A stretch of 64,000 nt of DNA, taken from NCBI GenBank assembly GCA_016202645.1, contig JACQOF010000003.1, positions 1 through 64,000 of the forward strand, written 5' to 3'. Shown one piece after another: positions 3,205 to 16,157 of this stretch; positions within the stretch are counted from its first letter, which is position 1; the number at the start of each line of letters is the position of its first letter. The DNA is from a bacterium (GTDB lineage: Bacteria; Lindowbacteria; 2-12-FULL-62-27). The notes beneath the pieces were generated by a model. That model did not search any database. It saw only the letters and a program-made list of their open reading frames with translations, and was not told the DNA's origin. A program made the position numbers and the translations under genes.

Positions 3205-3924
3205 CTATTTGACGGTCAGGTAGTCCTTCAGCTTTTCGAAGCTCTTCTCTCCGATCCCCTTGATCTCCATGATCTCCTCGATCTTCTTGAATCCGCCGTG
3301 AGCCTCCCGGTACTCGATGATTTCCAGGGCCTTCTTTTCGCCGATCCCTTTAAGCGTCTGAAGCTCATCCGCGCTGGCGGTGTTGAGGTTGACCTTTCCG
3401 GCCGGCGCCGCTTTCTTGGATGAACGGCCGCCTTCTCCGGACTTTCCGGATTTCCGGCTTGTCCGGCCCTCGCCCTCCGAGGAAGCCTTCACCGAGCCGT
3501 GCGATATGCCGCCCTCGACGGTGAGATAATTCCGCATCTTCTCAAAGGTCTTGTCGCCGATGCCCTTGATCCCCTTCAGATCCTCGATGCTGGAAAATTT
3601 TCCCTTCTCCTCCCGCATCGCGATGATGTCCGCGGCCATCTTCGGGCCGATCCCGGGGACGCCGTCGAGCGTCGAAGCGTCGGCTGTGTTGATGTTGACC
3701 TGGTCGCCGACTTCCCCGCTTTCCGCCGGCTCGGCGGCTGATTCTTCGCCCATCGGCGATTCCGAAACGGCCATCGCGCCTTCCGGAGATTCCCCTTCCG
3801 ACGAGCTTTCCATTGTTTGATCGGACGAATCAATGGCGGGCGCGACCAGCTCCTCCTTGGATCCGCAACCGCCCAGAAAACCGGTCAGAACAAAACCCAA
3901 AACCAGAACCCCGAAACGCTTCAC
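3205..3924 (-). CDS. Lipoprotein with two ComEA-type helix-hairpin-helix domains
   Basis: I place the start at GTG 3924, which has AAGGGG upstream and gives a short lipoprotein signal ending LTGFLGGC, rather than a start further upstream. The mature protein (239 aa with signal) has an acidic Ser/Glu linker, a ComEA-type HhH unit beginning VNINTADASTLDGVPGIG, a basic Ser/Gly/Lys linker, and a second unit VNLNTASADELQTLKGIG. In known families this fold binds duplex DNA without sequence preference, as in the ComEA receptor of natural transformation. A lipid anchor would place two DNA-binding modules at the cell envelope. It is convergent with secA (stop codons adjacent) and lies downstream of the kinase/cyclase genes, 181 bp away. 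The DNA role is inferred from the fold. Confidence 0.88.
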   Translation of the reverse strand: MKRFGVLVLGFVLTGFLGGCGSKEELVAPAIDSSDQTMESSSEGESPEGAMAVSESPMGEESAAEPAESGEVGDQVNINTADASTLDGVPGIGPKMAADIIAMREEKGKFSSIEDLKGIKGIGDKTFEKMRNYLTVEGGISHGSVKASSEGEGRTSRKSGKSGEGGRSSKKAAPAGKVNLNTASADELQTLKGIGEKKALEIIEYREAHGGFKKIEEIMEIKGIGEKSFEKLKDYLTVK

Positions 3925-3959
3925 GCTGTACCACCCCTTTTTGTATTCAAGTCTCACCC

Positions 3960-4105: not shown

Positions 4106-5656
4106 CTACTTCCTCAACCGGTAGACCTGAATTTTGTCCCCGACGCCTTTCAAGGCGACCTCCTCCGCGTTGGCCGTATAGGAGGGATCGCCCGCGCGCA
4201 GGTAGGTGTTTGAATCTATCAGAATTTCTCCGGCGCCCGCCTGCGCGCAGAGCCTGGAGGCGATATTGACGCTCCCGCCGATGGCGGTGTACTCCATGCG
4301 CTTTTTGGAGCCGATCGTGCCGACGATGGCCTCCCCGGTGGCGATGCCGGCGCCGATGCCGATGGCCGGCAGGCCCTCCCGCGCGAGACTCTCGTTCAAC
4401 TTCGGAATGGTGCCCATGCACTCTACCGCCGCCTTCAACGCCCGGGCCGGGGCGTCCGCCTGCTCGATGGGCGCGCCGAAAAAGGCCATGACGCTGTCGC
4501 CTATGAATTTGTCCAGGGTGCCGCCGTTTTCGAAAATTTTGTCCAGCAAAAGATCGTAGTGCCGGTTCAGGACCTCAACCACGGTTTCCGGAGTGTGTTT
4601 TTGCGATATGTCCGTAAACCCGCGGATGTCGGTGAACATCGCCGTGATCTCGCATTTCTTCCCGCCGAGACCCACTTCCTGACCGGCGTCGATGAATTTT
4701 TCAACAACCCTTGGCGAAAAAAACCGCGACAGGTTCAACCGCCGGCGGGTCTCTTCCGCCAGATGCTCGTAGAGCGTGGCGTTTTCAATGGCGATGGCCG
4801 CCTGATTGGATACGGCCGACAGAAGCTCCAGATCCTCCTTGCCGAAAAATCCGCTGATGCCGACGGAATCGAGATAAACCACGCCGCAGATTTTTCCCTT
4901 GTTCCACAGCGGCGCGCACATGGCCGAATGGATGTTGTAGCCCATCACGCTGTGCGTGGCGCTGAACCGCGAGTCGGTCTGGGCGTCCTGAATGAGGAGA
5001 GCCGTGCGGCTGTTCACGACCGAATCGACGATGGTCCGGCTGAAGGGCATCACGTTCATCTCGCCGGGTTTGGCGTCCCCGAATTTCGCCGTGTGCGGCC
5101 GGATCGTCTTCGTGTCCGGGTCCACCAGCAGGATAAACCCGCGGCCGTACCGGAACAGCCGGAAGAGCACTTCGAGGATCTCCGCCAGCAGTTCCTCCAG
5201 TTTGAGCGTGGCGTGGAGGCTCCGGCTCACATGATAAAGCGCGGCCAGCCGCTCGTCGGGCCGCCCGGCTTTCAGGTCCGCCTCGACTTTCCGCTCGTCC
5301 TTCTGTTCCTTGTCGGCGATGTCGATCTGGTGCATGATTTCGGCGGTGGGAAGGTCCGTCCGTTCCGTGGCCTCGTCCTCGAACATGAACCGCGTCAACC
5401 CGATTTTGATGATGTCGTTGTGCTTGAGCAGACCCTCCTTCACCGGTTGATCGTTTACCAGCGTCCCGTACTGGCTGCCCTCATCCAGAAGATGGTATCC
5501 GTCCTCGTGTTTGACCAGCCGGGCGTGATGCCGGGACACGATCCGTTCCGAAATGACGATGTCGTTGTCGGGATTTCGGCCGAACCACCGGTCCCGCGCG
5601 TCCAACGGAATCTCCGTGGCGCGCGTCGATCCCGAAATGACGATGAGCCGCGCCAT
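4106..5656 (-). CDS. FHA-GAF-class III adenylate cyclase
   Basis: The start ATG 5656 overlaps the stop of the upstream kinase by one base (TGATG), so I prefer it to the longer frame to 5788. The 516-aa protein has an FHA domain (RWFGRNPDNDIVIS, SRHHA, GTLVND; about residues 15-90), a GAF domain (about 145-305) and a class III cyclase domain (about 330-515). The metal-binding Asp residues are in FTDIRGFT and GDSVMAFFG. The Lys in TLDKFIGD suggests ATP rather than GTP as substrate, and VNIASR supplies the transition-state Asn/Arg. FHA domains bind phosphothreonine, so the coupled kinase is the obvious partner: phosphorylation would steer cAMP production. No membrane segment is seen. The cNMP-binding exporter at 58.6-61.3 kb is a possible effector. 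Confidence 0.93.
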   Translation of the reverse strand: MARLIVISGSTRATEIPLDARDRWFGRNPDNDIVISERIVSRHHARLVKHEDGYHLLDEGSQYGTLVNDQPVKEGLLKHNDIIKIGLTRFMFEDEATERTDLPTAEIMHQIDIADKEQKDERKVEADLKAGRPDERLAALYHVSRSLHATLKLEELLAEILEVLFRLFRYGRGFILLVDPDTKTIRPHTAKFGDAKPGEMNVMPFSRTIVDSVVNSRTALLIQDAQTDSRFSATHSVMGYNIHSAMCAPLWNKGKICGVVYLDSVGISGFFGKEDLELLSAVSNQAAIAIENATLYEHLAEETRRRLNLSRFFSPRVVEKFIDAGQEVGLGGKKCEITAMFTDIRGFTDISQKHTPETVVEVLNRHYDLLLDKIFENGGTLDKFIGDSVMAFFGAPIEQADAPARALKAAVECMGTIPKLNESLAREGLPAIGIGAGIATGEAIVGTIGSKKRMEYTAIGGSVNIASRLCAQAGAGEILIDSNTYLRAGDPSYTANAEEVALKGVGDKIQVYRLRK

Positions 5657-6702
5657 CAGCGTGTCGCCCGCTTTGAACGTGAAGTCGTCGGCTTTCCGTC
5701 GGCTTCCGGCTTGAACCATTTCTTCTTCCATGCAACAAAACCGGCGGCGGCCAGAATCAACACGGACACCGCCGCAATCCATATCCATTTCCGGTTTTTG
5801 TGGGTACCGGCGGGTCGCGCCGCCGGCGGCATCAGCGCGCCCGGCATCGACGCCCGCACATACCCGCCCACCGGCTCGTCCGGATCGCCGTACTTGATGT
5901 CGGTCAAAATGCCCTCCACCGACTGGTATCGCTTGCGCGGGTCCATCTCAAGACACTTTCGGAGGATGCTGTCGGTTTTGACGGAGATGTTGCGGTTGAA
6001 GACGATGGGCGGAGTGATCTGAAAGGCCGGGTCGGCCATCCGTTTCAGAATCGCCGCGGGCTGGTCCGACCCACATGGGAATTTTCCGGTTGCATAGCGG
6101 TATCCGACGGCGCCGAGACTGAAAATGTCGGCGATGTGGTCGACGGCCGCGGAATTCTGAAACTGCTCGGGGGCCATGTAGGGCGCGCTGCCGAGAATTT
6201 CGCCGGTGGCGGAAATCGTCGCCTCGGCGAGAAGCTTCGCGAACCCGAAATCGACCAGCTTGACCTGCTTGTCCATCGTGAGAAAGATGTTCGCCGGCGT
6301 GAGATCCCGGTGGACCACGCCCTGCCGGTGCGCGAAGGCCAGCCCCTCGGCGCAGGCGCCGAACACTCGCAGAAATTCCTCCTCGGCCGGAAATGTTTCC
6401 AGATTCTCGATCTCCTGCTCAAGCGGCATCCCGTCCAGCCACTCCAGCGCCAGAAAATGGGTCCGGCCCTCCGAGCCGTGATCCAGCACGCGCACGATAT
6501 TGGGATGGTCGAGCTTGAGCAGGGCCTGCGCCTCGCGCGCAAAGCGCGCCACCACCCGATCGTCCTTCGCCAGATGCGCCGGCAGAACCTTCACCGCAAC
6601 CGTCCGGCCCAATTTCTCGGAATAGGCCTTGTAGATGGACCCGAAGTTTCCGCCCGCGGTTTCGGCGACGAATTCGTAACCTGCGATCCGCGGGAATGGC
6701 AT
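5656..6702 (-). CDS. Transmembrane Hanks-type Ser/Thr protein kinase
   Basis: The 348-aa protein has a kinase domain at about residues 8-275: Gly loop, VAVK (K38), alpha-C Glu in REAQ, HRDLTPAN (131-138), DFGFAK (151-156) and APE. One membrane helix at about 305-325 is followed by a short basic tail, so there is no sizeable outside domain. The usual Lys of HRDLKPxN is Thr here. The gene is translationally coupled to the FHA-GAF-cyclase at 4106-5656, which probably reads its phosphorylation. It is divergent from the retropepsin-like gene. The catalytic Lys, Asp and DFG suggest activity in spite of the Lys-to-Thr change. Confidence 0.93.
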   Translation of the reverse strand: MPFPRIAGYEFVAETAGGNFGSIYKAYSEKLGRTVAVKVLPAHLAKDDRVVARFAREAQALLKLDHPNIVRVLDHGSEGRTHFLALEWLDGMPLEQEIENLETFPAEEEFLRVFGACAEGLAFAHRQGVVHRDLTPANIFLTMDKQVKLVDFGFAKLLAEATISATGEILGSAPYMAPEQFQNSAAVDHIADIFSLGAVGYRYATGKFPCGSDQPAAILKRMADPAFQITPPIVFNRNISVKTDSILRKCLEMDPRKRYQSVEGILTDIKYGDPDEPVGGYVRASMPGALMPPAARPAGTHKNRKWIWIAAVSVLILAAAGFVAWKKKWFKPEADGKPTTSRSKRATR

Positions 6703-6734
6703 GGGTCAGCGGGCAACACGGGGACATGGGGATG

Positions 6735-6763
6735 TTGACGCAATGGATGCGGAAGCATATAAT
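6735..6763 (+). promoter_or_regulatory. Sigma70-like promoter giving a leaderless mRNA
   Basis: TTGACG (6735-6740), a 17-bp spacer and a perfect TATAAT (6758-6763). The expected transcription start, seven bases past the -10 box, is 6770, exactly the A of the ATG of the next gene. No Shine-Dalgarno can fit. Confidence 0.8.
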
Positions 6764-6769
6764 CGGGTC

Positions 6770-7177
6770 ATGGGTGAAATACGAGCGCGGTTAAAGCTTC
6801 GCAATAGCATGAACGGCGGGGATGCGGTAGAAGTCGAGGCCATTGTGGACAGCGGCGCGCGGCGGCTGTCCATCCCGGACGACCTGGTCCAAAAACTCGG
6901 ACTTGCAGTCTCCGGCCACTTCAACGTGAAATACGCGGATGGCCGTGTCGAAAAACGTCCCCGGTATCGCAATCTGGACGCCACCCTCATCCATCCCAAT
7001 CCTGTGATTAACGGAAGGCGGGCGGCCGGCGATTGTGTCGGTACGCCCGTCGGCTCTCCCATCCTGCTTGGCCAGTTGCCGCTGGAAGACATGGACGTCA
7101 TCCTGAACATGGCGCTGGAACGACTCGAGCCCAATCCCGAATCCCCCGATTCCGACCCCCTGTCGTATTTGTACTGA
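6770..7177 (+). CDS. Retropepsin-like (clan AA) aspartic protease-type protein
   Basis: The 135-aa protein contains VEAIVDSGARRLSIP, the D-S/T-G-A catalytic loop of single-domain clan AA aspartic proteases, followed by the family-typical VQKLGL and, later, PILLGQLPLEDMD. Length fits a protein that works as a homodimer. Bacterial members of this type are mostly uncharacterised. The start at 6770 is fixed by the promoter above and by the family N-terminus; the frame runs on upstream to 6701. It is the only plus-strand gene within the kinase block and has its own promoter. A role in processing signalling components is only a guess. Confidence 0.75.
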   Translation: MGEIRARLKLRNSMNGGDAVEVEAIVDSGARRLSIPDDLVQKLGLAVSGHFNVKYADGRVEKRPRYRNLDATLIHPNPVINGRRAAGDCVGTPVGSPILLGQLPLEDMDVILNMALERLEPNPESPDSDPLSYLY

Positions 7178-7228: not shown

Positions 7229-8911
7229 CTACTTCTGCACCAGCGTCGCGAAATTGTTCAGCTTGTCGTCCACCACCGTTTCAAACATGCCGCAACGGAA
7301 TATCCATTGGCCCCGGCTGAGTTTAAAAATTGCCCGGGGCTTGGCGCCTTGAATATGTTTCTTGAAAAACGAAAACGGGAGAGCGAAACTTTGATCCGTG
7401 CGGCCGCATATAAAAACGATGTAGACCTTGTTGTCATTCCCAACCTCCTCCCCTTTCGCCAATAACATTTTTGTAATATCGAAAGCGTACTGATTTTTCT
7501 GAGTGGTGGTGAATTTAATAAAAACATTTTTGCCGTTATCGTTGATGTAATATTGCCCGAATCGGCCGTCGACCAATTCGATGTTTCCTCCCATCGCCCG
7601 GATCGCTTCTGTGATTTCAAATATGGCGGCGCGTTTGTTTGTGGCGCTGCCCGCGCGGGGAGTGACGGAACTCTTCGCCCCCTCATCGTCGCCTTCTTCC
7701 GACGCCTCCTCATCGTGGGTGGCCCTGGCCGAACCGGCCGATGATGCTTTGATGGCAACGCCGGCCTTTTGATGTGAAGATGTGTCCGGCGAAAGAGCCA
7801 TCATCGTGATTCCGACGGCCAGGCCGACGAGGACAATCACGCCGGCGACGCCTCCGGCCACCAACCATTTCATAGGGATTTTTTTCTTATGGGCCTCCGA
7901 TGGCGGCGGGGGCGGGGACGCTTGGGTCATGACAGGCTCCTCCTCTTTCTCAATGACTTTCTCTCGTTGGATGTCCTCAAGGACGTCTTCGAACGACTGG
8001 TATCGCTTCAGTTTGTTTCGTTGAAGGCATTTCGAAATGATGATGGCCAATTTCAGAGAGGTTTTTGGATTGACGATGTTGATCTTGTCCGGCATGTAGG
8101 TCTCGTCCGTGATGTGTTTGATGGTGGACATGGGGGTGGCGCCCTCGAAGGGCCGTTTGCCGGCGGCCATTTCGTAGGCGATGACGCCGATGCTCCAGAT
8201 GTCGGCGCGGCGGTCGACATCGTGCGCCCGGCCGAACTGCTCGGGCGCCATGTAGGCCGGGGTGCCGATGAGGGTGCCGGTTTTGGAGATGGTGAGTTCG
8301 TTGACGAGTTTGGCGATGCCGAAATCGATGACTTTGACGCCACCCGATTTGGCCTGCATGATGTTTCCCGGCGTGAGGTCCCTGTGCGTGATGCCCTGGG
8401 TGTCGGCGTAGAGAAGCGCTTCGCAGATCTGCCGGAGAATCCCGTAAATCTCATTTTCCGGGACCGGCCCTTCGGCGATCCGGCTCTTGAGGCTGTCGCC
8501 GTCCACCAGCTCCATCGCCATGTAATGGAATCCGGCCTGCTCGCCGTTGTCGCTGATCTTGCAGATGTTGGGATGGTCGAGCAGATAGAGCGCGCGGGCC
8601 TCGCGGCGGAACCGCTCGACGAACATTTCGTTTTTGCCGAGATGTTTCGGCAGGATTTTCAGGGACACGATCGTCCCCTTTTCCGTGTCCTTCGCCTTGA
8701 GCACCGTTCCCATACTGCCTTCGCCCAGGACCTGAAGGATCTCATATTTTCCGAATGGCGTCCCGATGCGGAATTGGACCTCCTCCGTTGCGGCGGCCGT
8801 CTCTCCGCCTTTTGAGGAAACCAGCTTGACGATGTCGCTGATGTCGCTCCCGCATTGCGGGCAAAACTGCACCGGCTTTCCGAGCTTGCCGCCGCATCTG
8901 GGACAGAACAT
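7229..8911 (-). CDS. Zinc-ribbon transmembrane Ser/Thr kinase with unknown outside domain
   Basis: The 560-aa protein begins with a zinc ribbon (Cys 3, 6, 17 and 20). The kinase domain lies at about 55-320: GEGSMG loop, K85, HRDLTPGN (176-183), DFGIA (196-200) and MAPEQ. A Pro-rich linker leads to a membrane helix at about 350-378, then a Ser/Glu-rich stretch, then a compact C-terminal domain of about 135 residues that should lie outside the cytoplasm. I do not recognise that domain; its FIKFTTTQKNQYAFDITK stretch faintly recalls PD-(D/E)XK nuclease-like folds, without a clear catalytic triad. As in the kinase at 5656-6702, the VIb Lys is replaced by Thr. It lies 16 bp after the HhH kinase gene, with GGGGGG as a possible ribosome site. 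Confidence 0.9.
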   Translation of the reverse strand: MFCPRCGGKLGKPVQFCPQCGSDISDIVKLVSSKGGETAAATEEVQFRIGTPFGKYEILQVLGEGSMGTVLKAKDTEKGTIVSLKILPKHLGKNEMFVERFRREARALYLLDHPNICKISDNGEQAGFHYMAMELVDGDSLKSRIAEGPVPENEIYGILRQICEALLYADTQGITHRDLTPGNIMQAKSGGVKVIDFGIAKLVNELTISKTGTLIGTPAYMAPEQFGRAHDVDRRADIWSIGVIAYEMAAGKRPFEGATPMSTIKHITDETYMPDKINIVNPKTSLKLAIIISKCLQRNKLKRYQSFEDVLEDIQREKVIEKEEEPVMTQASPPPPPSEAHKKKIPMKWLVAGGVAGVIVLVGLAVGITMMALSPDTSSHQKAGVAIKASSAGSARATHDEEASEEGDDEGAKSSVTPRAGSATNKRAAIFEITEAIRAMGGNIELVDGRFGQYYINDNGKNVFIKFTTTQKNQYAFDITKMLLAKGEEVGNDNKVYIVFICGRTDQSFALPFSFFKKHIQGAKPRAIFKLSRGQWIFRCGMFETVVDDKLNNFATLVQK

Positions 8912-8927
8912 GATTTACCCCCCGTCT

Positions 8928-10151
8928 TTATTCCACGGTCACGTGGTTCTTTATTTTTTCAAACGTTTTCTCTTTTATACCGTCCACATCCAGCAATTCA
9001 TTGATGGATTTAAAGCGACCATAATTTTCTCTCTGCCCAATGATTCTCCGGGCGATGGTGTTTCCGACGCCCGGAACCCGTTTCAATTCGGAGGCGGAGG
9101 CCGTGTTGATGTTGATCTTTTCTCCCGGTTTAAGTTTTTGGACAGGCAGTGATTCTTCATAATCATATCGATTTCTCGGCGATTTCGATGTTTCGGGCGC
9201 GGACGCCGTTTCATCCCTGAAATACAAAATCGACCCCGCCGCGATCAGCACGGCCGCCGTCCCCGCCATCGACCACGCGAGGACGGGTTTCGGGCGCAGG
9301 GCGCGCAGGCGCAGGGTCCAGAAGGACGCCCAGGGTTTGACGGTTCGCAGATGTTCGAGCATTTCTGTCATCGTTTGGTGGCGCTCTGCGCGGTCGCGGT
9401 GGAGGGCTTTGAGGATGACGTCGTTCAAGGCCTTTGAGATGGCGGTATTTTTGTCTCGGGGCTGGGGCATCGGCTCCGAAAAGATCTTTTTCATGAGCGG
9501 CCAGACGCTTTCCTTGCCGCCCTCTTCGATATGGAAGGGCAGGTGGCCGGTGAACATTTCGTAGAGGGTCATGCCGGCGGAATAGATGTCGGTGCGATGG
9601 TCGACGTTTCCCTCCTCGCCGATCTGTTCCGGGGACATGTACTCGACCGTGCCCATGATGGATCCGTCGGCGGTCATGGTCGATGAGCCTTCGCGGGCGA
9701 TGCCGAAATCGAGGACTTTGAGATTTCCCGCCGAATCGATCATAATGTTGTGGGGCTTGATGTCCCGGTGGACGATGCCCTGCCCATGGATGTATTGAAG
9801 CGCCTCGCAAAGCTGGACGGCGATGCGCGTTTTGGCGTCGTCGTTTTTTCCGGCGTGGTCGGAGATCCATTGTTTGAGCGTGACGCCCCGGACCAGTTCC
9901 ATCACGAAATAGAATTTGTCGATGTCGACGTAGTTGATGCGGATGACGTTGGGGTGGTTGAGTTTTCCGAGCGTACGCGCGTCGTTGAGAAATCGGGTGA
10001 CGGCCTTGGGTTTGTTGAAATAATTTTCGTGGAGCATCTTGATGGCGACTTCCATGTCGATGGCGGTGTCGACGGCGCGGTAGACGGTGGCGGCGCCGCC
10101 CGCGCCGATTTCCTCGAGGATTTTGTATTTGCCAAGGACCGTGCCGATCAT
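8928..10151 (-). CDS. Transmembrane Ser/Thr kinase with extracytoplasmic ComEA-type HhH domain
   Basis: The 407-aa protein has a complete kinase domain (residues 8-270: GAGGAATVY, K38, HRDIKPHN 128-135, DFG 148-150, SPEQ; alpha-C Glu is Asp in NDARTL). A basic stretch and one membrane helix (about 293-314) follow, then an acidic linker and a ComEA-type HhH domain (345-407: ININTASASELKRVPGVG, closing with an INELLDVDGIKEKTFEKI-type second hairpin). Basic residues before the helix predict the kinase inside and HhH outside. The familiar PknB layout carries PASTA modules at this position. The HhH fold suggests binding of DNA. The start ATG overlaps the PP2C stop by four bases, so kinase and phosphatase are coupled. 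DNA sensing is inference. Confidence 0.92.
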   Translation of the reverse strand: MIGTVLGKYKILEEIGAGGAATVYRAVDTAIDMEVAIKMLHENYFNKPKAVTRFLNDARTLGKLNHPNVIRINYVDIDKFYFVMELVRGVTLKQWISDHAGKNDDAKTRIAVQLCEALQYIHGQGIVHRDIKPHNIMIDSAGNLKVLDFGIAREGSSTMTADGSIMGTVEYMSPEQIGEEGNVDHRTDIYSAGMTLYEMFTGHLPFHIEEGGKESVWPLMKKIFSEPMPQPRDKNTAISKALNDVILKALHRDRAERHQTMTEMLEHLRTVKPWASFWTLRLRALRPKPVLAWSMAGTAAVLIAAGSILYFRDETASAPETSKSPRNRYDYEESLPVQKLKPGEKININTASASELKRVPGVGNTIARRIIGQRENYGRFKSINELLDVDGIKEKTFEKIKNHVTVE

Positions 10152-11200
10152 GCGGGCGGCTCCTCCCTGACGTGGATTTCGAATTCCGACGCGGTTTCGC
10201 CGAAGAGCCGCACCCGCAGGATGACCTTGCCCTCCGACCCGGCGGGCAGGCGGACGTAGTCGGGGGTCGACGGGGCCGCAACCGCCCTGTAGAGGACGAG
10301 CGTGAAATTGTCCGGCGCTTCGCGGGACAGCACCGTCTGCATGATCCGGCCGGCGGCCACCCTGAGGTCCGGGGTCTTCTGCATGACCGCCTCCAGTTCC
10401 GCGTCATTCATCACGCCGTGCACGCCGTCCGTGCAGAGCATCGCCGTTTCGCCGGCGGCCAGGCTTCGCACGAAAATGTCCGGTGTCGGCGAGTCGCCCT
10501 GGCCGACCGCGCGGGTGATGGCGCTGCGGAGTTTGTGGGTGCGGGCCTGGGCTTTGTCGATCATGCCGGATTTGACGATCTCGCCGACGAGCGAGTGGTC
10601 CTCGGTTTCCTGAACGAGCCGGCAGGCGTCGGAGACGCCTGCACCTGGGGCGCCGGAGGCGCTGATCCGCCCGTTTCTGGATTTGTAGAGGCGGCTGTCG
10701 CCCATGTTGCCGATGGTCAGGCGATCCTGCGAGACAACCCCCATCACAAGCGTCGTGCCCATGTCGGTGTAACGCTTCTCGGCCGCGATGCGCCGGACCT
10801 CCGCGTCCGCCGCCTCAACCGCCTGCCGGACGATGGGCGAGAAATCCGGCGTGGCTTCAGAATTGTGCGCCAGGATGCCGCGCGTCACATGGAAAAATGC
10901 CGTCTCTACGGCGGCGGCGGCGGCAAGATCGCCGCCCCGGCCGCCCCCCATGCCATCCGCCACGAGGAGCGCCGCAAAGGAGCGGACGTCGCCCCGGCGC
11001 CAGACATGGAGGGTTGCGGCCAGAAAACTGTCCTGATTGTCGTCTCGCTTGAGGCCGCGGTCGGTGAAAGCGTAAATGTCGGCGGGAGGAATGGAGTTGT
11101 CGGGGAAACAAAACTCTTTCGGCTGGATCAGAAGACGGGCGCCGGCGTTGAGGCTGTCCGTCAACCGGCGCGCAAGCGGCACGATGGCCGGGGCGTTCAC
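10148..11200 (-). CDS. PP2C-family Ser/Thr protein phosphatase
   Basis: This 350-aa protein has the PPM/PP2C metal motifs: FTDRGLKRDDNQD, VADGMGGGRGGD, MGDSRLY, CTDGVHGVMND and DNFTLVL. It removes phosphate from Ser/Thr using two Mn or Mg ions and should reverse the neighbouring kinases. About 80 residues after the catalytic core (from about 270) form an extra domain that I do not recognise. The start is GTG 11200; I see no clear Shine-Dalgarno. The stop overlaps the ATG of the HhH kinase. An eight-copy GGCT repeat begins 33 bp upstream of the start and could influence expression. Confidence 0.93.
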   Translation of the reverse strand: MNAPAIVPLARRLTDSLNAGARLLIQPKEFCFPDNSIPPADIYAFTDRGLKRDDNQDSFLAATLHVWRRGDVRSFAALLVADGMGGGRGGDLAAAAAVETAFFHVTRGILAHNSEATPDFSPIVRQAVEAADAEVRRIAAEKRYTDMGTTLVMGVVSQDRLTIGNMGDSRLYKSRNGRISASGAPGAGVSDACRLVQETEDHSLVGEIVKSGMIDKAQARTHKLRSAITRAVGQGDSPTPDIFVRSLAAGETAMLCTDGVHGVMNDAELEAVMQKTPDLRVAAGRIMQTVLSREAPDNFTLVLYRAVAAPSTPDYVRLPAGSEGKVILRVRLFGETASEFEIHVREEPPA

Positions 11201-11492: not shown

Positions 11493-12524
11493 TCACAACC
11501 GGGACGGCTCCACCCGGTAGGTTTGACCGTCCGAAAAGACGAAAATGCTTCCCTGCTCGTCCGTCCGGTATATCTTCGCGCCGATGTCCCGAAGGCGCTG
11601 GAGGACTTCCGGCCGCGGATGGCCGAAGGTGTTGTAGGATCCGACGGATATAACCGCCGCTTCCGGCTTGACCTGATTCAAAAAAATCGGCAGGGACGAG
11701 GTCTTGCTGCCGTGGTGCCCGACTTTCAGGATCTGGGCCTTGAGTTCCGGGCCCCATCGCACGGATACGCTTTTCTCGACCCGTTCCTCCGCGTCGCCGG
11801 TAAATAGAAAACTGACATGGCCGTAGATCATTTTCAAGACAATGGAGGAATTGTTCGGGCTGTCGGCGCTCGGGTCGACGAAGAGAATATGGGCGGAGAC
11901 GTCCGATCCGATATCGAGGCGGGTGGGAAGCTGATTCGGGTCCGGCGCATAGACCGGGATCTTGCGGCGCTTGGCGGTCTCGAGCAGTTTCTTGTTTGAA
12001 GACGTGGGATGGAGAAATCCGGATATCCAGAGCTGGCCGACGGTCAGGGCGCGGTTTCCGATGAGGTCGGCCATCGACCCCATGTGGTCGCTGTGCGGGT
12101 GCGTCGCGATCACGACGTCCAGATGGGTCGCGCCGATCTGCTGGAGAAACGGAAGGATGACCCGGTTGGCCGCGTCGACCGGGCGGATGAACCGGACATC
12201 CGGAGTCCGGCCCTCGCCGCTGTCGATCAGGATGTTCTTGCCCCGCGGGGTCTGGATGAATGCGCCGTCGCCCTGGCCGATGTCGAAGAAAACAACCGCC
12301 AGTTCCCCCGGTCGCTTCCAGATCGCAAGCGGGGCCGCGCCCGGCGCCCCGGATGAGGAGCCGAGAGACATCGAGGGCGCATCGGAGGGAAAATAGACCG
12401 GGATGGCATGCATCCATCCGGCGATGACCAGCGCGAGCAGTACACCCGCCGCCGCCCATCCGGGCCACGTGACCGGCCGGTCGGTCCCCTGGGCGCGCCG
12501 GTATTTCGAGAATTTATCTTCCAT
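11493..12524 (-). CDS. Membrane-anchored ComEC/Rec2-type metallo-beta-lactamase-fold protein
   Basis: The 343-aa protein has an N-terminal membrane helix (about 23-45), and the rest should be periplasmic. The fold matches the C-terminal domain of ComEC: VVFFDIGQGDGAFIQ, LIDSG, the intact metal motif THPHSDH (141-147), FTGDAEE, KVGHHGSKTS and the closing ISVG/GHP region. In ComEC this domain is thought to degrade the non-transported DNA strand. Here it is a separate protein, last in the comEC operon, one base after the ComEA-like gene. Because the domain inside this ComEC has lost ligands, this one may supply the nuclease activity; that is inference. Confidence 0.9.
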   Translation of the reverse strand: MEDKFSKYRRAQGTDRPVTWPGWAAAGVLLALVIAGWMHAIPVYFPSDAPSMSLGSSSGAPGAAPLAIWKRPGELAVVFFDIGQGDGAFIQTPRGKNILIDSGEGRTPDVRFIRPVDAANRVILPFLQQIGATHLDVVIATHPHSDHMGSMADLIGNRALTVGQLWISGFLHPTSSNKKLLETAKRRKIPVYAPDPNQLPTRLDIGSDVSAHILFVDPSADSPNNSSIVLKMIYGHVSFLFTGDAEERVEKSVSVRWGPELKAQILKVGHHGSKTSSLPIFLNQVKPEAAVISVGSYNTFGHPRPEVLQRLRDIGAKIYRTDEQGSIFVFSDGQTYRVEPSRL

Positions 12525-12525
12525 C

Positions 12526-13239
12526 TCAGTCGGCGGTCACAAGGTCCCGGAACTTGTTGAGGGTCGCCGGGCCGATGCCCTTCACCTGCGTGAGTTCCTC
12601 GACGTCCGAAAAGGATCCGTTCTCCTCCCGGTAATCGATGATCCTCTGCGCGGTCGCTTTGCCGATCCCGGGCAGACCGTCCAGATCCTTCAGGCTCGCC
12701 GTGTTGATGTTGACGAGTTTGGACGCGCCGCTCTTGGTCCGGCTTCCCTTCGGCTTCCGGCTCATTCCGCCGCCGTCATCCGCCGGGTCCCCCGACTTGA
12801 CGACACAACCGGTCATGTCGACGCGGATGTGGTCCTTGAGCGATTCGTATTTCGCGCCGCCGCCGAATCCTTTCACATTTTTCAGGTCCTCGATACTCTC
12901 AAAACAGCCGCGCGCCTCCCTATAATCCAGGATCGCCTGGGCGGTGGCTTTACCCACGCCGGGCAGGGAATTCAGCTCTTCCGCGGTAGCGTGATTTAGA
13001 TCGATTTTGAGGTTTGCCTGCAGTGTCTTGAGTTCTTCCCCGGTCATCGGCCGGGGGCTCCATTTGGATTCAAGGATCGGAACTGCTTCCCCCTCGGTGG
13101 TCTTCACGGGCCCGGTATAGACGGGCACGGGTCCGCCATCCGGGCCGGCATCCATAAAAAAGGAGGGGACAGCCCCGATCAGCAGGACCGCCAGCGATAT
13201 CAAAATCCACTTTTGCTCGGATGTCAGGGTGACCTTCAT
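12526..13239 (-). CDS. ComEA-like membrane protein with two HhH domains
   Basis: The 237-aa product has an N-terminal membrane anchor ([17 protein letters not shown]), a linker, one HhH unit ([20 protein letters not shown]), a Gly/Lys-rich linker, and a second unit ([20 protein letters not shown]). ComEA proteins bind incoming double-stranded DNA outside the inner membrane and usually have one such unit; the duplication is unusual. The first unit carries a small Cys-containing insertion (REARGCFES, and DMTGC after it), possibly a disulfide. The start overlaps the comEC stop by four bases and the stop is one base from the next start, so all three genes are coupled. Confidence 0.9.
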
Positions 13240-16157
13240 GAAGCTCCGTCCACGCCTCCGGCGTCGCTCTGTTTCGGCTTCAGCGTTTGAATCTGAAACG
13301 TTTTTCCGTCGCTGTCCACGATGACCGCCCAGTCCAGCCTCGAATCGAAAACCCGGTCCGGCCCGAGCCGCTTTTCATAATAAGCCCGATTCTCATCATA
13401 TTCCTCTTTGGCCCTATCCACAAGCGGCTTGGCCTCGCGGCTCTTGCCGTACAGAATCGCCGGATTCCCGGATTGAAAAACGGCCGCCTTCGGGCGCGCG
13501 GATTCCATCAGCCAGTCCTGACGGGCCGTCTCTGTGAAACCGTGCCCGGGAACCGTCAGCACGTCCGCCGCGAGATCGCCGCGGGCCGCATGTTCCCGGA
13601 GGACGGTCTCGGAGGCGTCGCCGGTCAGAAGGGCGGAAAATTTTCCGTGAGAAATTCGAACGACCCCGCCTTCCATAAAAGTGATTTTGAGCGCGTGTCC
13701 GGCGGGGGAACTTTCCGTGACCACAAAGCCCGCTTTGGCCGCGACCCGGGGTATGCGCCTTTCCTCCGACGCGCGGACAAGCGCGATGTAGCCTTCGCAT
13801 ATCCGCCGGACGTGCGGGACGTCCGCGCGGGCCTCCGAATGGGCGTCGCCGGTTTCCCGGAAAAAAAGCCGGCAGGCGGCGGCCGTGTCCGTCTCCATGA
13901 GTTCCAGCATCCGGCCGGGATTCTGAACCGGTACGGGATCGTACCAGGCCTCCACGTCGAACCCTTCAAGAATCGTCGCCAGTCCCTCCGTGTGCTCCGG
14001 GCCGGAATGCGTCAGGATCACGCCGTCCAGATGTGTAATACCCTGCTTGAGCAGAAAGGGCGCGATCACTTTTTCGCCGGCGTCGAAATGGTTCTTCGGG
14101 TTGTTCAGAGACCCGTCGACGAGGAAAGTTTTCCCGTCGGGGCACTGGACCACGGCGGCGCCGCCGTAGGGGGTGGAGAGAAACGTCAGGCGCAGCGTGC
14201 CGGGCGGAACCGCCGGCGGACGCTTCCAGATTTCGTGCACTGACAACACCAGAAACGCGGCCGCGACGGCCGCCAGCCCAGCGACATTTCGCCGGATCCG
14301 GGGGTCCGCCGCGTATTTGTATGATTTGTTGTAGATCTTCAGGACGGCCGAGCGGATCGGATCCATCCAGATGAACGCCGTGATTGCCGCGTAATACACT
14401 ACGAGTTGGCCGGGCGTGAATTGACTGATGAAGGGATAGGGAAAAATGACCGCGGAGGCATGGGCAACATATAAAAAGAATTTAATGAAAATAAAATTGG
14501 CGGCGTTCAGAATCAGAGCGATAAACATGCCGACGCCGGGGATCATTCCCACCAGACCGGCCATAAGGCCGATCGGAACAATGATTCCGGTCAGCGGGAT
14601 GGCCACGAAATTGGCGTAGGCGCCGGCCAGGGAATAACGGCCGAAGTAGTAGGAGGAAAGCGGAAACATCATGCCCAGCAAAATGGCGCCCTGGGCGACG
14701 ATGAACAGTCTGAGAAACGGCGGACACCGGTCAAACCTGAAGTCCGGCCACTTGTCGCGAAGATCCTCCTGGCGGCAGCGCCACAGGCCCCATGCGGCGG
14801 CGGCAAAGAACGCGAGCACGACCGCAGGCTTGGTGAATGTATCCCAGAGCGGCCGCGTCGAGAGAGTCGTCAGGCCGAACAGGGTCAGGACGGCCCAGAT
14901 CAGCGTCGGGCCCCGGAGCGCCAGCAGGACTTTCTCGATCGGGCCGGACAGGAGCGACAGGGAGAGGACGGCGGCAAAGGAGAGGGTGAAGGAGGGCTGG
15001 ACGATGTTCTTCGGTTGAATGAACAGCACGATCATGGCCGCTTCGGCGATCGCAAAGAGCAGAGAGACCTTGAAACCTCCGCGGGTCATGGCCAGAAAGA
15101 AAATCGCGAGCGAGTTCATCAGAGTCGCCCGCAGGGTCGCCGGGGCCATGCCGGTGAGGATCATAAACAGGACGAGCGCAAAAATGACGAGGGGAGCCTG
15201 GATCCGCAGGGGAATCCGCAGGGCGGAGAGGATGGCGATCAGCATCGCGCTGATGATGGTGACATGGAGGCCCGACACGGCCAGAACATGGCTCACGCCG
15301 GCCATCCGGAATTCGTCGGTGACCAGCCGGCCGTCCCCGGGGACGATGCAGACGACGTCCTTCAGCACAGATTTCATTCCCAGCGTGACGCCGGCCAGAA
15401 ACGCCGATTCGGGATGGGGAATCGTCCGGACCAGAACCGAGAGGACCCGCTCCTTGACCCGGAGCGCCCATTCCGTCAGAAAAATGCCCTCGCCCTGGTC
15501 AAGTACTTCGATCGGCGGCGGCGCGCCCCAGGAAACGGCGACGGTCTGGCCGGCGTAGATGTCCTGGTCGGCGAGAAAGTCTTGATACGAAAACCCGCCG
15601 GGATTGGCGGCGGCCTGAGGGACCAGGAGGGGCGCGTTCACGCGGATCCGCCAGCCGTAGACCGCGCTCTGGCTGAATTGCCGGTAGAGATCGGGCGCTG
15701 ACCGGCGCACCGTGACTTCGACTTTTCCGCCGGTGACGGCCGTGAACTCGTCCGCGCCGGTCCGCCGGGCCTGGATCGGATTGAGGGTGAATCGGACCTG
15801 ATCGCTGTAAACATCGGGTTCCGTCACGATGACGCCTTCGACGCTGACCCGGTTCTTCCAGGAATCGGTTGTGTATTTCGATATGTGGTTCGCCCCGCCG
15901 ATGGCCGCTGTTTCCGAGTACCTTCCCCACCCGAGGAAAAACGCGCTGAGGCCGAACAGAAAAACGGCGGCGGCCATCGGAAATCGCCCGCGGCGCGCGC
16001 GGACAAACCCGAAAAAAGAAAACGCGAGGAGGAGCGCGAAGAGGGTCTGGCAGAAGGCGGACTGGCGGTCGGACAGCAGATAAAACTTTCCGGCGACTAC
16101 GCCCAGCACGAAAGCGTAGGCCTGGAACATGAGCCGGCGCATCCAGGCTTCGGACAT
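13236..16157 (-). CDS. comEC: DNA uptake channel ComEC (Rec2 family)
   Basis: The 973-aa protein has N-terminal membrane helices, an OB-like DUF4131 region (about 100-220), the Competence membrane domain with the diagnostic [14 protein letters not shown] and [10 protein letters not shown], further helices and a C-terminal metallo-beta-lactamase-type domain (about 660-973). ComEC carries single-stranded DNA across the inner membrane during transformation. The usual H-x-H-x-D-H metal motif of the C-terminal domain reads THSGPEH (716-722): the second His is Gly and the Asp is Glu, so metal binding is probably impaired. LLTGDAS and the later GHG are retained. It overlaps the ComEA-like gene downstream by four bases. 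Confidence 0.95.

Follow-up and report, generated by a model that had tools for sequence, protein, structure and literature searches.

What does a receptor kinase sense when, at the place where the PASTA kinases carry their repeats, it holds an HhH domain of the type known from ComEA? This question is raised by a gene within a window of 64,000 nt, the whole stretch of DNA analysed here, which belongs to a draft genome of the Lindowbacteria (G000; 2.9 Mb in 146 contigs, 82% complete). From the sequence alone it had been proposed that the gene joins a Ser/Thr kinase, one membrane helix and a C-terminal ComEA-type HhH domain, and that the protein perceives DNA outside the cytoplasm. To our knowledge, no bacterial receptor kinase with DNA itself as its ligand has been described. 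Only two relatives from the same family were present in our genome collection: Candidatus Lindowbacteria RIFCSPLOWO2_12_FULL_62_27 (G001), which represents a sister genus, and a further genome, G002.

Domain structure and topology

The gene (8928..10151) is located on the minus strand, which had not been stated before, and is one open reading frame for 407 amino acids with an ATG start and without frameshift. Residues 9–267 (9351..10127, minus strand) form a kinase domain (Pfam PF00069, 1.6e-55) in which all catalytic motifs were found: GAGGAATVY at residue 16, VAIK at 35 with K38, HRDIKPHN at 128, DFG at 148 and GTVEYMSPEQ at 167. Judged by its fold and by these motifs (G-loop, VAIK lysine, HRD, DFG and P+1 loop) it is a Hanks-type, PknB-like Ser/Thr kinase, and it is predicted to be catalytically competent. 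The sole hydrophobic helix of the protein is found near residues 289–308 (9228..9287, minus strand; KD 1.77) and is bordered by the basic stretch RLRALRPKP on the side of the kinase. Hydropathy and flanking charges suggest a single-pass topology. The HhH domain at residues 343–405 (8937..9125, minus strand) is predicted to lie outside the cytoplasm, for the kinase depends on ATP and would be inside.

This domain matches HHH_3 in hmmscan with E=3.2e-23 and 82 bits (cut-off 27) and also exceeds the cut-off of TIGR00426, which describes the ComEA HhH region (67 bits, cut-off 53.1). The model of the full ComEA protein, TIGR01259, yielded 69 and thus stayed below its cut-off of 152. No PASTA match was obtained for the protein by hmmscan. 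The model of the PASTA kinase family (Stk1, NF033483) reached 301 bits against a cut-off of 450, and this match stops at residue 271. The unusual ectodomain at the PASTA position and the joining of all three elements in one frame are hence borne out by the reading frame, the Pkinase and HHH_3 matches and the structure prediction described below. Like PknB, StkP and PrkC, the protein combines an N-terminal Hanks kinase, one membrane helix, an ectodomain capable of forming repeats and an adjoining gene for a cognate PP2C phosphatase; unlike them, it has a ComEA-type HhH domain and no PASTA, and NF033483 covers its kinase part only. It would operate as the PASTA receptor kinases do without being a member of that family, and its ectodomain is of the ComEA type while the protein is not a ComEA. 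It is best read as a single-pass receptor Ser/Thr kinase, specific to this lineage, with a new type of ectodomain.

A function in defence was also considered. The best PADLOC matches to defence kinases (PD-T4-6 and others) span residues 1–272 only, i.e. the generic kinase, and the matches at the locus as a whole correspond to generic kinase, metallo-beta-lactamase (MBL) and cyclase domains. The reading as a defence system was set aside on this ground.

Comparison of the ectodomain with ComEA

Residues 335–407 were modelled with AlphaFold2 together with 17 related domains. The model shows the ComEA fold (pLDDT 90.8), and its first Foldseek match is Geobacillus ComEA, 8dss (E 8e-7, TM 0.85, rmsd 1.0 A), for which VIA gave a Z of 13.0; sequence identity between the two domains is 45%. 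Tex and then the Thermus ComEA-related protein 2DUY follow as the next structural matches. The domain is basic, with a net charge of +5 (residues 339–407) compared to -2 in the ComEA domains of Bacillus and Geobacillus. Its first hairpin, GVG, is intact, while the second reads GIK instead of GIG. Three of the four lysines that have been mutagenised in ComEA are kept, Bsub K193, K197 and K199 corresponding to K395, K399 and K401. The fourth, located in HhH1 (Bsub K164, Gste K166, Vcho K63), is replaced by I366 here and by methionine in the orthologue from G001. Loss of K166 abolishes DNA binding in Geobacillus ComEA, and the position is decisive in the Bacillus and Vibrio proteins, too. To calibrate this difference, a set of 31 ComEA-type HhH domains, all short and exported and drawn from a variety of genomes, was compared; lysine occurs at this position in three of them, and mostly Leu, Thr, Met or Ile is found. 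In Thermus 2DUY the position is a Leu with ARR behind it, similar to the window protein. With lysine that rare, the view that I366 argues strongly against a DNA-binding role was given up: the lack of the lysine neither refutes nor supports such a function.

The protein thus shares with ComEA of Bacillus, Geobacillus, Vibrio and Thermus the HhH fold and sequence, the predicted extracytoplasmic location and the membrane anchor. It differs by the placement of the HhH domain C-terminal to a cytoplasmic kinase and by the missing HhH1 lysine, and there is no room in it for the oligomerisation domain of the Gram-positive ComEA proteins. ComEA-type HhH domains bind dsDNA without sequence preference (PMC3879209, PMC9747964, PMC2601033), and Thermus ComEA has been reported as a dsDNA binder (PMC8578077). 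On an exported DNase the fold acts as a portable module for DNA binding (PMC4777378). DNaseTA of Thioalkalivibrio and ComE1 of the Pasteurellaceae employ it as an exported ligand-binding module, there in a nuclease or adhesin without a kinase or signalling role.

Conservation in the sister genome and gene neighbourhood

The orthologue in G001 has 421 amino acids and is 42–45% identical over residues 6–407. The kinase parts share 48% of their residues and the HhH domains 50%, compared to 18% in the linker and 26% in the membrane helix. The HhH domain being as conserved as the catalytic part while the segments between them vary, this comparison indicates that the ectodomain is under constraint and kept by selection.

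Directly upstream of the kinase gene a PP2C phosphatase is encoded (10148..11200, minus strand; PF13672, PP2C_2, 7.8e-14; Stp1-like NF033484 5e-50, below cut-off), the last 4 nt of which coincide with the beginning of the kinase gene (ATGA). The translational coupling suggested for this pair is supported by its presence in the sister genus, where the PP2C gene again lies directly upstream, with an overlap of 1 nt (TAGTG). As another genome of the family has this architecture, too, together with the overlapping PP2C gene, it is neither a chance fusion nor an assembly artefact.

The other genes nearby, all on the minus strand and assigned by domain matches, comprise a second kinase of zinc ribbon-kinase-TM structure located 16 nt downstream (7229..8911), a third kinase-TM gene (5656..6702), an FHA-GAF-class III nucleotide cyclase as the candidate output (4106..5788) and a predicted lipoprotein (3205..3957). 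This last protein has a pair of HhH domains of the ComEA type, the second of which keeps all four mutagenised ComEA lysines according to residue mapping. On the other side follow a TM-anchored protein with a metallo-beta-lactamase fold, kin to the ComEC C-terminal domain and with an intact HPHSDH (11493..12524), then ComEA2 with a TM anchor and two ComEA-type HhH domains (12526..13239) and a homologue of the ComEC channel, ComEC2 (13236..16157). In all three genomes the MBL domain of ComEC2 itself is without HxHxDH, while the adjoining TM-anchored protein has HPHSDH (window 11493–16157; L090:11115–15841; L091:2–3891). The two proteins may possibly constitute a split ComEC nuclease. Every one of the three genomes has another ComEA-ComEC pair as well.

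The row comEC2 - comEA2 - MBL - HhH lipoprotein is tight in G001 and G002. The window holds the same four genes, with PP2C, kinase-HhH, the two further kinases and the FHA/GAF/cyclase inserted between MBL and lipoprotein. Co-occurrence with comEC had been put up for checking by the sequence-only reading. In the window the kinase-HhH gene lies close to comEC2, but in G001 the two are on different contigs. A conserved kinase-comEC operon was rejected, as it is not kept in G001 and as MBL and lipoprotein genes adjoin in G002 without the kinase cassette. Within the window, the cassette is not one clean operon, either, because of gaps of 292 nt ahead of the PP2C gene and of 526 nt separating the second kinase gene from the third, and because of a plus-strand reading frame in the latter gap. 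This frame (6701–7177) is aspartyl-protease-like (PF13650, 1.7e-5), and a near-consensus -35/-10 pair is found by it at 6735–6763. The FHA-cyclase gene is consequently parted from the kinase-HhH gene by two kinase genes and the plus-strand gene, whereas in G001 its homologue adjoins the kinase-HhH gene. Elsewhere in G000 (contig C59, L051:34–4898) a second TM kinase gene is paired with an FHA-cyclase homologue, which suggests a recurrent kinase/cyclase circuit.

Distribution and a wider class of kinase-TM-HhHn proteins

A search for kinase-TM-HhH architectures across genomes had been recommended, and it yielded, besides the G001 orthologue, seven further kinase-TM-HhHn proteins of 522, 610, 619, 772, 798, 926 and 941 amino acids, all in G001, and none elsewhere among the matches listed. 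When a profile of the window/G001 pair was run against 386 genomes, with at most four candidates scored per genome, matches reaching into the HhH domain were confined to G000 and G001 among those listed, and none of the 383 genomes outside the family gave a kinase-TM-HhH protein within the same limits. Among 119 kinase reading frames in the fetched loci, some of which are partial, HhH domains occurred in the Lindowbacteria lineage only, and none of 52 HhH reading frames from other genomes was a kinase. A tblastn search of plasmids gave generic kinases only among the matches listed. These genomes are a sample and do not represent all bacteria. A kinase-TM-ComEA-HhH receptor did not turn up in the open-access literature, and a survey of the architectures of prokaryotic Ser/Thr kinases from 2005 mentions neither hairpin nor DNA-binding.

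Paralogues in G001 are found on contigs C33 (L044, L106, L092), C20 (L093) and C6 (L094), and their degenerate HhH units can number five or more. Those of which the tails were read (610, 619, 798, 926 and 941 aa) have a Cys-rich ribbon ahead of the helix. Next to these genes, TM-anchored HhH proteins (293 and 271 aa) and a PP2C are encoded. For the 610- and 619-aa proteins, two membrane helices and a cytoplasmic HhH part had been considered. This was rejected, as the first hydrophobic peak falls into the Cys-rich, zinc-ribbon-like stretch, which makes a single pass likelier. Since most of the paralogue hairpins have lost GxG, a binding of DNA in the manner of ComEA has probably been lost in these arrays, and the HhH part on a kinase is not always a DNA binder.

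In a tree of kinase domains the window protein and its G001 orthologue are sisters (93/76) and are joined by the nearest kinase from G002 (100/98), which has 664 amino acids and a different ectodomain without HhH. This fits a sensor part that can be swapped. HhH domains appear on three separate branches, and the well-supported branches force at least four changes.

The fold has also been fused to other proteins of the lineage, among them a secretin and a PLD-family protein which is N-terminally anchored and presumably exported. The secretin (G000 contig C125, L048:1479–7559) has 2026 amino acids with AMIN, five Secretin_N and Secretin domains, the last of which is followed by three HhH domains of the ComEA type. 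Frames of similar length in G002 and G001 (2134 and 2229 amino acids; L062, L063) contain HhH clusters as well, and the hairpins are partly degenerate. The PLD-family protein (PLDc_2; G000 contig C4, L005:604–2136) has a TM anchor at its N-terminus and an intact ComEA-type HhH domain in its middle, and like-sized proteins (511 and 504 amino acids) in both sister genomes (L055, L056) have HhH at the same place. These are plausibly envelope proteins tied to DNA handling.

Possible ligands of the HhH ectodomain

The basic domain, its intact first hairpin, the three kept lysines and the DNA-handling neighbours make DNA a plausible ligand. In favour of a DNA receptor as a whole we also count the architecture and PP2C overlap found in two genera, the FHA-cyclase near the kinase in both, and the position of the cassette inside the comEC2-comEA2-MBL-lipoprotein row of the window. 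The GIK hairpin, the distance of the sister kinase from comEC2, the degenerate hairpins of the paralogues and, with little weight, I366 count against it. We infer that DNA is the likeliest ligand, with a chance of about one half.

The same receptor might instead recognise a protein component of the pilus or of the apparatus for DNA uptake, such as a pseudopilin, ComEA2, the HhH lipoprotein or the HhH secretin, so that the kinase would report assembly of the machine and not DNA itself. We regard this as rather unlikely, yet as the most serious of the alternatives. A protein ligand has to be considered since the HhH motifs of Pasteurellaceae ComE1 bind fibronectin through the same motifs as dsDNA (PMC2601033); the GspK/XcpX pseudopilins contain a related fold that is used in protein contacts, genes for possible HhH partners are numerous in the vicinity and across the genome, and the degenerate paralogue hairpins would agree with it. 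However, in the window protein and its orthologue the domain has stayed basic and its first hairpin intact, which is what one expects from a protein that binds nucleic acid, and the orthologue is not near comEC2. The HhH domain could also be a structural or dimerising tail, or a binder of another envelope polymer, with the kinase controlled from elsewhere. The lineage is indeed rich in HhH domains (13, 32 and 17 HHH_3 matches in the three family genomes, mostly 0–6 elsewhere), their occurrence on three kinase branches points to modules that are easily swapped, and the structure search also retrieved PsbU, a protein with this fold and no known DNA role. A mere tail would, however, not need the strong conservation that the domain shows relative to the linker, and we consider this explanation improbable.

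Finally, a Ser/Thr kinase bound to the membrane is also known from E. coli: YegI matches HHH_5 weakly at its C-terminus and has PphC as its partner PP2C. YegI passes the membrane twice, with both ends inside. A similar topology would place the HhH domain in the cytoplasm, in contact with DNA or protein there. The resemblance to YegI-PphC-YegL extends to the membrane-bound kinase, the HhH segment and the paired PP2C. YegI differs, however, in that its HhH family is another one (HHH_5, below cut-off), that it has no Pkinase match and three hydrophobic peaks, and that it is accompanied by a vWA partner and by no competence genes. The window kinase has a Pkinase match, one hydrophobic helix only and no adjoining vWA gene, and in the 610- and 619-aa paralogues, where the first "TM" is weak and within the Cys-rich ribbon, all HhH units follow one helix. 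A cytoplasmic HhH domain is thus very improbable, and YegI/PphC serves as a loose precedent for the combination of kinase, HhH and PP2C.

Proposed mechanism and biological meaning

Returning to DNA as the ligand, the kinase would reside in the cytoplasm and a linker of 33 residues would set the ComEA-type (HhH)2 just outside the inner membrane. There it may bind dsDNA that reaches the periplasm, either incoming at the ComEC/ComEA2 machinery or as free DNA. Several receptors gathered on one DNA chain could trans-phosphorylate their activation loops and so signal inward, and the PP2C from the overlapping gene would reset the system. Clustering and reset by PP2C are established for kinases of the PknB/StkP type. 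The likely reader downstream is the nearby FHA-GAF-nucleotide cyclase, together with the two neighbouring kinases, as FHA domains read phosphothreonine; the cyclase is put forward as the output from gene neighbourhood. For this complete scheme, from binding of periplasmic dsDNA through clustering to PP2C reset and cyclase, we see even chances. Somewhat more tentatively, the Lindowbacteria may possess a dedicated kinase-TM-HhHn class in which PASTA is replaced by HhH units, from a single one up to five or more. Its canonical member would perceive dsDNA in the periplasm or outside the cell while uptake is going on and signal to the PP2C/FHA-cyclase circuit in the cytoplasm.

The "new kind of input" which the sequence-only reading had seen in this protein is right for the architecture and premature for the ligand. 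Even with a protein ligand, kinase-TM-HhHn is a receptor architecture for which we came across no description and which, in the sample searched, did not turn up outside this lineage. In Thermus, an influence of ComEC on how pilus and transporter genes are transcribed has been found (PMC8578077). If the DNA-binding reading is true, a signal input during natural transformation or feeding on DNA becomes directly testable, and a cell with such an ectodomain could couple the arrival of DNA at its envelope to phosphorylation in the cytoplasm.
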